From Leisingera daeponensis (GTDB lineage Bacteria > Pseudomonadota > Alphaproteobacteria > Rhodobacterales > Rhodobacteraceae): DNA of 64,000 bases. The stretch is from the NCBI RefSeq assembly GCF_019801465.1, contig NZ_JAHVJA010000002.1, forward strand, positions 62,001 through 126,000, written 5' to 3'. The notes beneath the pieces are model-generated. The model had not been told where the DNA came from. It saw only the letters and a list, made by a program, of their open reading frames with translations, and did not search any database. Shown here in pieces: positions 21,153 through 25,087 of the stretch. The translations under genes were made by a program, and so were the position numbers. Positions within the stretch are counted from its first letter, which is position 1; each line of letters opens with the position of its first letter.

Positions 21153-23111
21153 ATGGCCGACGACCTCCTCAGCACGCCCGCAGCCGAGACCTATGACGCC
21201 TCCTCGATCGAGGTTCTCGAAGGTCTCGAACCGGTCCGCCAGCGCCCCGGCATGTACATCGGCGGCACCGATGAGCGCGCGCTGCACCACATGGTGGCGG
21301 AAATCCTCGACAACTCGATGGACGAGGCCGTCGCGGGCCACGCCAACCGCATCGAGGTGACGCTGCATTCCGACTACGCCGTCACCATCTCCGACAACGG
21401 CCGCGGCATCCCGATCGACCCGCACCCCAAGTTCCCGGACAAATCCGCGCTGGAGGTGATCCTCTGCACCCTGCACGCGGGCGGCAAGTTCTCCGGCAAG
21501 GCCTATCAAACCTCCGGCGGCCTGCACGGGGTCGGCTCCTCGGTGGTGAACGCGCTCAGCGATTCCATGGTGGTCCAGGTCGCCAAGAACAAGGAGCTGT
21601 TCGAACAGCGCTTCTCCCGCGGCCTGCCCCTCGGCCCGGTTGAAAAAATCGGCGCCGCCCCCAACAAGCGCGGCACCTTCGTGACCTTCCACGCCGACGA
21701 GCAGATCTTCGGCCACCACCGCTTCAAGCCCGCGCGCCTGTTCAAGCTGGTGCGCTCCAAGGCCTATCTGTTCTCCGGCGTCGAAATCCGCTGGAAATCT
21801 GAAATCGACGACGGCGAAACCCCGACTGAGGCCACCTTCCACTTCCCCGGCGGCCTCAAGGACTACCTGACCGAAGTCCTTGGAAAATCCTCCGTCTACG
21901 CAGACCAGCCCTTTGCCGGCAAGGTCGAGTTCCGCGAGAAATTCGGCGAGCCGGGCTACGTGGAATGGGCGATCAACTGGACCCCCTCGCGCGACGGCTT
22001 CACCCAGTCCTACTGTAACACCGTCCCCACGCCCGAGGGCGGCACCCATGTCACCGGCTTCTGGGCCGCCATCCTCAAGGGCATCAAGGCCTATGGCGAG
22101 CTAGTGAGCAACAAGAAGGCCGCCCAGATCACCCGCGACGACCTGATGGCGGGCGGCTGCGCGCTGGTCTCCTGTTTCATCGCCGACCCGGCCTTTGTCG
22201 GTCAGACCAAGGACCGCCTGTCGACCGAGGCCGCCAGCAAGATGGTGGAAAACTCGGTCCGCGACCATTTCGACAACTGGCTGGCCGCCGACACCAAATC
22301 GGCCGGCGCCATCCTCGACTTCCTGATCCTGCGCGCCGAAGAACGCCTGCGCCGCAAGCAGGAGAAAGAGACCCAGCGCAAATCCGCCACCAAGAAGCTG
22401 CGCCTGCCGGGCAAGCTCACCGACTGCACCTCCAAGGACCGCTCCGGCACCGAGCTGTTCATTGTCGAGGGCGACTCCGCGGGCGGCTCCGGCAAGGGCG
22501 CCCGCAACCGCGTGAACCAGGCGCTGCTGCCCCTCAAGGGCAAGATCCTCAACGTCCTTGGCGCCGCCTCCAACAAGCTCGGCTCCAACGCCGAGATCAA
22601 CGACCTCTGCGAGGCGCTTGGCGTCGGCCTCGGCACCAAGTTCAACCTCGACGATCTGCGCTATGACAAGATCATCATCATGACCGACGCGGACGTCGAC
22701 GGCGCCCATATCGCGTCGCTGCTGATGACCTTCTTCTTCACCCAGATGCGCCCGCTGATCGACGGCGGCCACCTCTACCTCGCCTGCCCGCCGCTGTTCC
22801 GCCTGACCCAAGGCGCCAAGCGCGTCTACTGCCTGGACGAGGCCGAGCGCGATAAATGGCTGGAGAAGGGCCTTGGCGGCAAGGGCAAGATCGACGTCTC
22901 CCGCTTCAAGGGTCTTGGCGAAATGGACGCCAAGGACCTGAAGGAGACCACGATGGACCCCACCACCCGGAAATTGATCCGGGTGACCATCGACGAGGAC
23001 GAGCCCGGCGAGACCGGCGATCTGGTTGAACGTCTGATGGGGAAAAAACCCGAGCTTCGCTTCCAGTATATTCAGGAGAATGCGAAGTTTGTGGAGGAGT
23101 TGGATGTTTGA
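21153..23111 (+). CDS. parE: DNA topoisomerase IV subunit B
   Basis: A 652-residue type IIA topoisomerase ATPase subunit that with ParC decatenates replicated chromosomes. The GHKL ATPase shows ILDNSMDEA, ISDNGRGIPID and GGLHGVGSSVVNALS; the Toprim domain shows VEGDSAGGS and MTDADVDGAHI. The length and the QTSGGLHGVG context fit ParE rather than GyrB, which carries extra insertions. The C-terminus QYIQENAKFVEELDV is the standard family end, so the AT-rich genes that follow have not truncated it. Confidence 0.96.
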   Translation: MADDLLSTPAAETYDASSIEVLEGLEPVRQRPGMYIGGTDERALHHMVAEILDNSMDEAVAGHANRIEVTLHSDYAVTISDNGRGIPIDPHPKFPDKSALEVILCTLHAGGKFSGKAYQTSGGLHGVGSSVVNALSDSMVVQVAKNKELFEQRFSRGLPLGPVEKIGAAPNKRGTFVTFHADEQIFGHHRFKPARLFKLVRSKAYLFSGVEIRWKSEIDDGETPTEATFHFPGGLKDYLTEVLGKSSVYADQPFAGKVEFREKFGEPGYVEWAINWTPSRDGFTQSYCNTVPTPEGGTHVTGFWAAILKGIKAYGELVSNKKAAQITRDDLMAGGCALVSCFIADPAFVGQTKDRLSTEAASKMVENSVRDHFDNWLAADTKSAGAILDFLILRAEERLRRKQEKETQRKSATKKLRLPGKLTDCTSKDRSGTELFIVEGDSAGGSGKGARNRVNQALLPLKGKILNVLGAASNKLGSNAEINDLCEALGVGLGTKFNLDDLRYDKIIIMTDADVDGAHIASLLMTFFFTQMRPLIDGGHLYLACPPLFRLTQGAKRVYCLDEAERDKWLEKGLGGKGKIDVSRFKGLGEMDAKDLKETTMDPTTRKLIRVTIDEDEPGETGDLVERLMGKKPELRFQYIQENAKFVEELDV

Positions 23112-23128
23112 GGGGCTAACCGCACCCA

Positions 23129-23560
23129 ATGAATGACGATGTTTTTCATGAGGTTACCCTACCTTTAGAGTTCATGGTCTCAGGAACACCTGTTTCACTT
23201 CAAGGCTCGCCAAAGTCGAAAAGTGCTTGGAAACAGGAAGTCCGCAAGGCAGTTCATGCTACTGTTCCTGAAGGTGCCTGGCTATTCGAGCACAAGATCT
23301 CAGTGACGATTTACGATTTCCCAGCTGATACACCGGCTGGAGACGTGGATAACATCGTGAAAGTAATCTTGGATGCCATGAACGGAACCGTATATGCTGA
23401 TGACAACCAAGTTGCTCGTGTTGCGGTTCAGAGGTTTCTACCGGAAGAGGTGGCCAATTTCACAGATCCGCCTAACGTTGTTGCAAAGGCAATGGCGATT
23501 GGCGATCCACCTTTCGTATTCATTCGTGTCTCGGATGACCCTATTGGAGAAGCGCAATGA
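23129..23560 (+). CDS. RusA-like Holliday junction resolvase
   Basis: A 143-residue protein of the RusA family. The metal-binding acidic pattern is intact: D72 and D74 in AGDVDNIVKVILDAMNG, then D91-D92 in YADDNQVARV, which corresponds to the catalytic aspartates of E. coli RusA. It would cleave four-way DNA junctions as a dimer. It begins 17 bases after the parE stop, is clearly AT-richer with different codon use, and overlaps the next gene by four bases (ATGA). RusA genes are typically phage-borne, so transfer is likely. Confidence 0.85.
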   Translation: MNDDVFHEVTLPLEFMVSGTPVSLQGSPKSKSAWKQEVRKAVHATVPEGAWLFEHKISVTIYDFPADTPAGDVDNIVKVILDAMNGTVYADDNQVARVAVQRFLPEEVANFTDPPNVVAKAMAIGDPPFVFIRVSDDPIGEAQ

Positions 23561-24198
23561 TGGCATATGAACTGGAAAAAGAAGCGCTAGATCAAATTCG
23601 TAAAGAGTACGAAAGCCAGGAATACGAAGTATTTCTTGAACCTTATCGCTATAAGTTTGACACATACATTCCCGACTTGATCGCCAAGAAAGGCGACGAA
23701 GTTATTGCCGTGGAAGTCAAAACGAAACGTTTTCCTAGCGTTGAGAAACATCTAGAAGAACTTCGGCGAAAGTTGCTCGACGAAAAAGGATGGACCCTGA
23801 TTGTACGTTACTTGGACGAAATGGCGTTACCTCTTGGGCCAAGAACACAAAGCAACCAAGAAATTGACGGCGCCATTCAAGAGGTTAAAAAGTCCTGCAA
23901 TTTGGGCAACAAACGGGCTGCATTCTTGCTTTCTTGGGCTGCGCTCGAAGCCGCTGCTCGCAGGGTACCCGGCAACTTTTTCGCGAGACCTCAATCACCG
24001 GGACGTATTGTTACTGTGCTCGCCGAACATGGTATTGTTCTCCCAAGTGAAGCACGAGAACTTAGGGGCCTAATCGAAAAAAGGAACTCGCTTATTCATG
24101 GCGATGTTTCGGTTGAGATAAGCAAGGATGATCTTCAGAGGATGCTGAAGAGTATTGTAAGAGTTCAGCACTATTCAAGTCCACCAGAGGCTGGATAA
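23557..24198 (+). CDS. PD-(D/E)XK nuclease fused to a HEPN-like domain
   Basis: A 213-residue protein. Residues about 1-90 look like a restriction-endonuclease fold of the archaeal-resolvase-like type: IPD40LIAKKGDEVIAVE53VK55TK gives the P-D...E-x-K triad. Residues about 100-205 are helical (AAFLLSWAALEAAARR) and end with R176-N-S-L-I-H181-G, an RX4H motif as in HEPN ribonucleases. Both domain calls come from motifs only. It shares a four-base overlap and atypical AT-rich composition with the RusA gene. A role in defence or mobile-element conflict is inferred. Confidence 0.65.
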   Translation: MMAYELEKEALDQIRKEYESQEYEVFLEPYRYKFDTYIPDLIAKKGDEVIAVEVKTKRFPSVEKHLEELRRKLLDEKGWTLIVRYLDEMALPLGPRTQSNQEIDGAIQEVKKSCNLGNKRAAFLLSWAALEAAARRVPGNFFARPQSPGRIVTVLAEHGIVLPSEARELRGLIEKRNSLIHGDVSVEISKDDLQRMLKSIVRVQHYSSPPEAG

Positions 24199-24310
24199 GT
24201 TCTGACGCCAGATTTAGACCCTTTTTGTCGAACCAAGTACTAACAATCTATGTCCTCCTTAGAAGGAAGGAGCTAAAGGCGCGCTTGCCTGCCAATAACC
24301 CACACCACAA

Positions 24311-24374
24311 GGCCCGCGCCTGACCTTGGGAGGGCGCGAATGCGCCTTCCCGGGGGGAAGGTCAGGCGCGGGCC
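24311..24374. repeat. nested inverted repeat element 1
   Basis: Outer arms GGCCCGCGCCTGACCTT (24311-24327) and its exact complement (24358-24374), 17 bases without mismatch. Inside, GGGAGGGCGC (24328-24337) pairs with GCGCCTTCCC (24342-24351) with one G-T pair around GAAT. As RNA this would be a very long stable hairpin. Confidence 0.85.
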
Positions 24375-24461
24375 GTGCCGCTGCGCGCCACGTTCCAATC
24401 GGCACACTGCCCCTCCAATTCACCTTCCGCAAATACTCCCGCCGGAGGCATTCCAACGCTA

Positions 24462-24650: not shown

Positions 24651-25087
24651 CCGCCGCGCCCCCGTTGCGCCAAACCCCAATCCACCGCACGCCCCGCTTG
24701 CGCGCCCTTAACCCCGCCCTGCCATACTCCCATGCGTCGCGACACACCGGTGCGGACTGACACCCCGCACCGCCAGGAGATACGGGAGCCCCCAAGACCA
24801 CCTCTTCATCAGGTGCAGGGGTTCTCCGCAGATGAGAGCTTTCGAGCGGACATGGGGGCTTGCGACCCCCTGCCCGGCCCTCCGCCCTCCAGCGGCGCCG
24901 CCTCCTCTTACCCGGCCACTGAACACCGGCCAGAAAACAATCCGGCCCCACAGCCATTTCCCCCGGACGGAGCCCCCTCCCGCCGGGCCAAACCCATGTG
25001 CCCGCATGACACCTGCGTGAAGCCGGTTGCCTGAAACCCCTTTCCCTTCCTAAGCTTAGGCCAGCATCCCCAACCAGGAGACCGGGC

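Follow-up and report, generated by a model that had tools for sequence, protein, structure and literature searches.

Directly behind parE in Leisingera daeponensis lie two overlapping genes that encode a RusA-family Holliday junction resolvase and an AHJR-HEPN fusion protein. RusA and its partner form a tightly coupled, co-varying unit, and the loci collected here indicate that many alphaproteobacteria carry the pair as one travelling unit that has spread horizontally. Its context makes a defense or toxin role of some kind probable, and we modestly favor the narrower reading of a horizontally spread two-gene defense module, of the abortive-infection or toxin type. The window is the whole 64,000-nucleotide stretch of DNA that was analyzed; its relevant features are collected in Table 1.

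The pair fills an insert with a GC content of 0.468, against a window mean of 0.651. Among all 500-base segments taken in 100-base steps over the whole 64 kb, only those starting at about 22,900–24,000 fall below 0.55 GC. The right edge of the insert was placed where homology to some relatives resumes (around 24,269–24,303). Seventeen bases separate the parE stop from the rusA start, and rusA shares four bases with the gene that follows; the ORF coordinates and GC content thus bear out the two overlapping AT-rich genes described in an earlier note on this DNA. The ORF list holds no further gene within the insert, no exact direct repeat of at least 9 bases was found at its edges, and Rfam gave no match at gathering score between 23,000 and 25,200 (best E = 0.96). 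The GC-rich intergenic stretches at 24,303–24,398 and 24,682–24,887 also match elsewhere in many genomes of the genus, among the matches listed, and neither contains an Rfam family.

Table 1. Features of the insert behind parE and of its left border, in window positions
Feature	Positions	Strand	Evidence or remark
parE (topoisomerase IV subunit B), host gene	21153..23111	+	Pfam DNA_gyraseB, DNA_gyraseB_C, Toprim, HATPase_c; 3' end borders cargo site
parE 3' tail GTGGAGGAGTTGGATGTTTGA	23091..23111	+	form accompanying AT-rich cargo behind parE in the family
AT-rich insert	23112..24268	.	left edge = parE stop; right edge ~24269-24303
RusA-family Holliday junction resolvase, 143 aa	23129..23560	+	PF05866 E=6e-13; AF2 model vs 1q8r
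AHJR-HEPN fusion protein, 213 aa	23557..24198	+	PF18743 E=3e-16; AF2 mean pLDDT 92.4
PD-(D/E)XK (AHJR/Hjc-like) domain, residues 1-92	23557..23832	+	1y88 Z 8.9, 1gef Z 7.3; D40, E53, K55
HEPN domain, residues 94-213	23836..24195	+	6m6w_H Z 11.5; E131, R176-N177-x3-H181-G182

By its profile and predicted structure, ORF1 is a RusA-family resolvase. Pfam family PF05866 matches it at 49.9 bits, above the curated cut-off of 22.8, and no second Pfam family does. The AF2 model, built from an 80-row alignment (mean pLDDT 85.9), matched E. coli RusA (1q8r, E = 1e-4), with which it has the fold and the catalytic aspartates in common. D72, D74, K78, D91, and D92 are all present, a catalytic set that we presume from the residues of the E. 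coli enzyme; the four aspartates sit where the earlier note had placed them. PADLOC-DB 2.0.0 returned no match for RusA at E ≤ 1.

The second protein combines two folds. The AHJR-like family PF18743 covers residues 3–111 at 59.5 bits, above its curated cut-off of 26.1, and HepT-like PF01934 falls slightly below its cut-off of 23.5 (21.2 bits, E = 2.4e-4). A sequence profile matched the N-terminal part to Holliday junction resolvase 2eo0 (E = 1.2e-4). In the AF2 model, which was also built from an 80-row alignment, VIA-align superposed residues 98–206 on HepT with an rmsd of 2.6 over 108 residues (6m6w_H, Z 11.5), and the top-ranked solved structures for this C-terminal domain were mostly HepT and other HEPN proteins. 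Residues 1–93 resembled restriction-endonuclease-like folds (1y88, Z 8.9), including Hjc (1gef, Z 7.3, rmsd 2.8, 81 residues); Z scores below 8, or below 13 for helical bundles, can reflect mere arrangement. Foldseek gave a best E of 6.7e-3 and nothing below 0.001. Since profile, motif, and structure agree, we accept both folds. The profile searches and structure predictions proposed in the earlier note thus gave RusA and AHJR-like above cut-off and HepT-like just below, and a nuclease-type as well as a HEPN fold for the second protein, whose lack had been named as grounds for abandoning the idea. Against the partner, PADLOC-DB 2.0.0 held weak matches alone (Cas4, 3e-3; PDC-S01, 5e-3; AbiEi, 0.03).

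Conservation of the active sites was read from 95 pairs, 92 of them different in sequence as some genomes had been fetched twice; a locus without the partner (L035) and a broken copy (L026) were left out. E131, R176, H181, and G182 of the HEPN domain are invariant in all 95, and N177 is kept in 91. A 2013 HEPN survey lists R-x4-6-H, a polar residue after the arginine, and an acidic residue in helix 2 as features of HEPN RNase activity (PMC3710099), and the window protein has each of them (R176, H181, N177, and E131). All five RusA residues occur together in 88/95 pairs. In the PD-(D/E)XK domain, D40 is found in 94/95 and E53 in 84/95 homologues, and the position of K55 holds V, A, I, T, R, and other residues in most of them. 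A complete D...(E/D)-x-K triad is present in 28/95, and of the remaining 67 homologues no more than 15 could, judged by pattern, have a shifted motif. Clustering at 90% identity gave 84 clusters and the same picture (25 with complete PD-(D/E)XK, 84 with HEPN, 78 with RusA). Because the lysine is kept in just 29/95, PD-(D/E)XK cleavage cannot be the function common to the family. The AHJR/Hjc-like domain is best read, from these residues, as a mostly binding module rather than a nuclease in most members; the activities predicted to be constant across the pairs are RusA and HEPN, and the HEPN domain is the likely effector. The motifs D40, E53-x-K55, and R176-x4-H181 were found at the positions that the earlier note had given, from which it counted three nuclease activities. 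That count fails for the family, though the window copy keeps the full triad, as do the copies in Ruegeria and Marivita.

How often the two genes recur together, a count that the earlier note had called for, was addressed from both sides. A scan led by the RusA alignment through one genome each of 84,980 species confirmed 109 loci, and in 79 of the best 80 of these the AHJR-HEPN gene lies directly downstream of RusA, a recurrence that exceeds chance. The sole exception (L035) has an apparent IS110-type insertion at the end of rusA. Searches led by the partner found 10 genomes besides that of the window, with an adjacent RusA frame in 10/10 (broken copies in two, L026 and L029), and 6 plasmid records, including a Ti plasmid and rhizobial plasmids, with RusA upstream in 6/6; RusA thus accompanies the partner in all 16 of these loci. 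One further match (L003; 35% over 89 residues, with an internal stop) was rejected as spurious, as it overlaps a longer opposite-strand frame that reads as an ordinary gene. Distances between RusA proteins and between their partners are correlated (r = 0.783, a value reached in 0 of 1000 permutations), shared host descent adding to the correlation. Among the 95 pairs, 48 have a four-base and 41 a one-base overlap, counts that lean towards small gaps because, of the possible start codons of the partner, the one closest to the end of rusA was chosen. Broken copies also occur: both genes are damaged in L026, and in L029 rusA is split over two frames with the partner open, a sign of turnover.

The pair is sparse, occurring in 1/394 genomes of the family, 7/385 of the class, and 6/398 of the phylum, the window's own genome being counted each time. 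In 70/76 loci its AT content exceeds that of the flanks by more than 0.03, and in the pair tree Rhizobiaceae rows fall in several distant clades, with families mixed outside the clade of the parE-site copies. Both properties are expected of a horizontally moving unit. In a check for tRNA-linked insertion, 3/79 loci had a tRNA within 2 kb. Three settings are recorded here as observations. On the Ti plasmid the pair adjoins DNA-repair genes (ligD and an error-prone polymerase/mutasome). In Rhizobium sp. T136 (L006, 3590–5420) it immediately follows a toxin-antitoxin pair of the DUF6088/AbiEii type, and about 4 kb downstream is a gene whose annotation reads restriction endonuclease. One copy (L066), whose 3.6 kb contig was binned as Myxococcota, groups with alphaproteobacterial copies and is possibly misbinned.

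RusA is often a phage gene, and PHROG 140 matches the window protein (E = 2e-12), so the insert could be what is left of a prophage or phage satellite that carried a phage RusA. Two partner queries against 50,697 phage records gave no match, however, and the window RusA found only 2 weak matches there (31% over 66%). The partner stood beside RusA in 0/21 loci on viral contigs, three of which have fewer than 900 bases downstream. Protein clustering of the neighbors of 79 host loci, with crude gene calls, found no cluster in more than 9 loci. With the partner lacking phage matches, the viral RusA loci unpaired, and the host loci without recurrent neighbors, the remnant was rejected, and we regard it as scarcely credible. 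That the pair is confined to prophages is likewise unlikely, the neighbors of the host loci having been assessed by clustering only. The window subfamily of RusA is host-borne and tied to its AHJR-HEPN partner, unlike E. coli RusA (1q8r), which we take to come from a prophage. The earlier note had proposed a compact conflict or defense module rather than a prophage remnant, and the absence of conserved neighbors, the absence of a phage match for the partner, and the immune- or toxin-type site described below all agree with it.

In the genus, the DNA immediately after parE is a site of variable cargo, occupied by AT-rich genes of several sorts, many of them immune- or toxin-type. The parE end is in place in 20/20 other sampled genomes of the genus (88–95% identity), and a genome search found the partner protein in none of the 20. 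From parE to the conserved right flank the DNA is AT-rich in 19/20 relatives (GC 0.43–0.53), with 0.59 in G008; in G012 and G008 the right edge is not on the same stretch. What fills the site differs from genome to genome. G014 has a Pycsar cyclase and effector (PADLOC E = 1e-85 and 2e-31), G020 a TIR-TM protein (PADLOC 1e-73), and G016, G011, and G012 RelA_SpoT proteins, the first also with PDC-S33. The DUF3644 protein of G001 has a sub-threshold REase-like end and matches PDC-S19 in PADLOC (1e-46). A Panacea domain (G010), NYN (G003), HEPN (G005), a C5 methylase (G017), RHH (G015), a TIR-effector-like protein (G007, 5e-9), a weak SIR2-like match (G002), and HNH_5 below cut-off (G009 and G004) were found in others. 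The cargo of G013, G018, and G019 had no family match in profile scans or PADLOC, G006 has no open frame of note, and G008 has, by eye, only transposase-like and small genes. PADLOC matched cargo in 8 of the 14 genus genomes submitted (of 20), compared with 1/10 ordinary window genes, the one match being an ABC-type ATPase by its matches. AT-rich cargo genes without a recognized family, and hence candidate small immune genes, include L142 753–1490, the 304-aa cargo of L153, L154 834–1388, and the first frame behind parE in L188; the first frames behind parE in L189 and L206 are AT-rich candidates as well.

The site extends beyond the genus. The same position was compared across the family, using the 29 best ParE matches, of which 28 other genera had enough sequence, with gyrB as the control. 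A GC drop of at least 0.10 was seen behind parE in 15/28 and behind gyrB in 2/29 (rank test, p = 0.011). Within the genus, where the gyrB control covered 19 of the 20 relatives, the drop was present in 18/19 behind parE and 9/20 behind gyrB (p = 2e-7). Alignability over the first 600 bases does not mark parE out in the genus, with a median of 0.00 behind both genes; genome pairs that were half aligned numbered 11/190 for gyrB and 0/171 for parE. The 600 bases behind gyrB (L213–L262) themselves align poorly in the genus, and the GC drop there is milder. What sets parE apart is how deep its GC drop goes and which kinds of genes lie there, not variability alone. Of ten cargo proteins from other genera of the family, those with Pfam matches above cut-off were AbiU2-HEPN, Mrr, DUF4145 (PD-T7-4), and DUF3800, and one had a weak match; PADLOC matched 2/10, which is no clear excess over the 1/10 of the control. 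The RusA pair itself also lies directly behind parE in the two named Roseobacteraceae of the best 80 loci, Ruegeria pomeroyi SZCCDBG043 and Marivita geojedonensis, and no ParE motifs were found within the locus in the others of the 80. The copies of Ruegeria, Marivita, and the window form one clade (99/85). Because of this, the three may count as one shared arrival, followed by exchange or loss.

The end of parE varies with the cargo. A GATGTT tail before the stop occurs in 18/26 genomes with a GC drop of at least 0.10, as against 3/28 without (Fisher p = 1e-5, kinship ignored), counted over 54 other family genomes; 57 had a ParE match, of which two were not fetched and one was too short. The tail GAGGAGYTGGATGTTT contains GGAGGAG, whose GGAGG resembles a ribosome-binding site, together with an ATG at which some cargo frames start (L186 and L187). 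Selection for translation of the cargo may account for this tail, or the cargo may bring it along. In G012 and G004 a second, decayed parE 3' end follows a 73-codon gene and precedes the next cargo, about 275 bases (L148) and 280 bases (L149) behind parE, which fits serial insertion at parE. When the DNA behind the cargo was searched for a direct repeat of the parE tail, 2/75 loci rose above controls, and a third in the same place did not. As only 2/75 loci show a second parE copy, a site-specific insertion mechanism is not established.

Parts of this arrangement have precedents. Table 1 of the 2013 survey lists HEPN-M fused to an archaeal Holliday-junction-resolvase-like REase, and so pairs, as here, an AHJR-like domain with a DUF86/HepT-group HEPN (PMC3710099). 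The main text of that survey has 0 occurrences of RusA, and its passages on such proteins describe no RusA partner, loss of the AHJR lysine, or parE site. MntA-HepT (type VII) likewise has an R-x4-H HEPN RNase in a two-gene operon, and HepT is the best-scoring solved fold for our C-terminal domain (Z 11.5). Here, however, the partner is RusA rather than a nucleotidyltransferase, and the HEPN protein has an extra Hjc-like domain. Membership of type VII was rejected, as the upstream gene is RusA by Pfam and the insert holds no MntA nucleotidyltransferase. AbiD1 of Lactococcus is a HEPN-type abortive protein, and the RuvC-like Orf3 of the phage is less active when AbiD1 is present (PMC2661086, PMC3710099). 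Here too a HEPN protein acts in connection with a junction resolvase while a phage infects, but Orf3 belongs to the phage and loses activity, whereas the RusA of the pair is encoded together with the HEPN protein. The pair fits no known anti-phage system model in PADLOC-DB 2.0.0 (2023). Among titles of the open-licence literature, no description of RusA-HEPN coupling or of a parE defense site was found (for topoisomerase IV, among the matches listed). Neither parE nor RusA occurs in the main text of two defense-hotspot papers (PMC10121019 and PMC10250203), and a candidate mention of RusA in PMC12737573 was discarded, the sole occurrence being an author's name. The pair probably represents a type of anti-phage module that has not been described before; its HEPN-M/AHJR fusion is already known, and RusA is an unusual partner in a HEPN two-gene conflict module.

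We reasoned that both RusA and the Hjc-like domain would recognize branched DNA, for example the junctions that are abundant in phage replication and recombination, with the AHJR domain serving in most members as a DNA-binding sensor rather than a nuclease. Engagement of a junction, probably with cutting by RusA, would release or activate the HEPN RNase, which would cleave cellular or phage RNA and halt the infected cell. Branched DNA is the substrate of RusA and is bound by Hjc-like domains, and HEPN RNases with this motif halt cells; a junction-triggered RNase would be the simplest joint reading, and we put this particular mechanism forward tentatively, with somewhat more doubt than trust. 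The broader defense reading draws on the coupling of the pair, the HEPN arginine and histidine kept in 95/95, the parE-site context, the horizontal spread, and the AbiD1 precedent. Against it count the single clade of the three parE-site pairs, the family cargo at 2/10 in PADLOC, the cargo of G013, G018, and G019 without a family, the pair's own lack of a PADLOC system of note, and the Ti-plasmid copy, whose place beside ligD and the error-prone polymerase would fit a repair role.

That repair role has a wider form, in which the pair serves mobile DNA as a recombination or repair resolvasome; junctions would be processed by RusA and the Hjc-like domain, and HEPN would be a structural or regulatory appendage. 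One operon does hold two junction-resolvase-type folds, and the Ti-plasmid pair adjoins ligD and the mutasome. However, the RNase-site residues E131, R176, and H181 are kept in 95/95 while the resolvase-like domain loses its lysine in most members, and this, the sparse distribution (1/394, 7/385, and 6/398 genomes of family, class, and phylum), and the immune- or toxin-type genes at the same site in relatives argue against it; we consider it very unlikely. A toxin-antitoxin system proper, with AHJR-HEPN as RNase toxin and RusA as a binding antitoxin, as MntA is for HepT, and without DNA sensing, comes closer. Gene order and overlap resemble those of two-gene toxin modules, the best-ranked C-terminal structures are mostly HepT/HEPN, and the 79 loci lack recurrent neighbors. 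Yet an antitoxin that acts only by binding could do without the catalytic residues that RusA retains in 88/95 pairs, and the partner's junction-resolvase-like domain would be superfluous, so this alternative is improbable, if less so than the resolvasome. The two-gene defense module remains our preferred reading.

The most far-reaching version joins the pair to its site. The two genes would represent a new immunity class, in which RusA and a mostly decayed Hjc-like domain sense branched phage DNA and license a HEPN RNase, and the 3' end of parE in this family would be a place where very small immune cassettes without an integrase land, bringing or selecting the tail GAGGAGYTGGATGTTT, each species holding another defense gene after this essential topoisomerase gene. 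That both halves hold together is rather doubtful. If the reading is true, the pair would be a defense module with a DNA-junction resolvase at its core, a design without a good model in the PADLOC library, and would give a testable answer to how a HEPN toxin is tied to phage replication intermediates. The site is useful in itself, since reading the DNA behind parE throughout the family could yield more small immune genes; several of those seen here belong to no known family.
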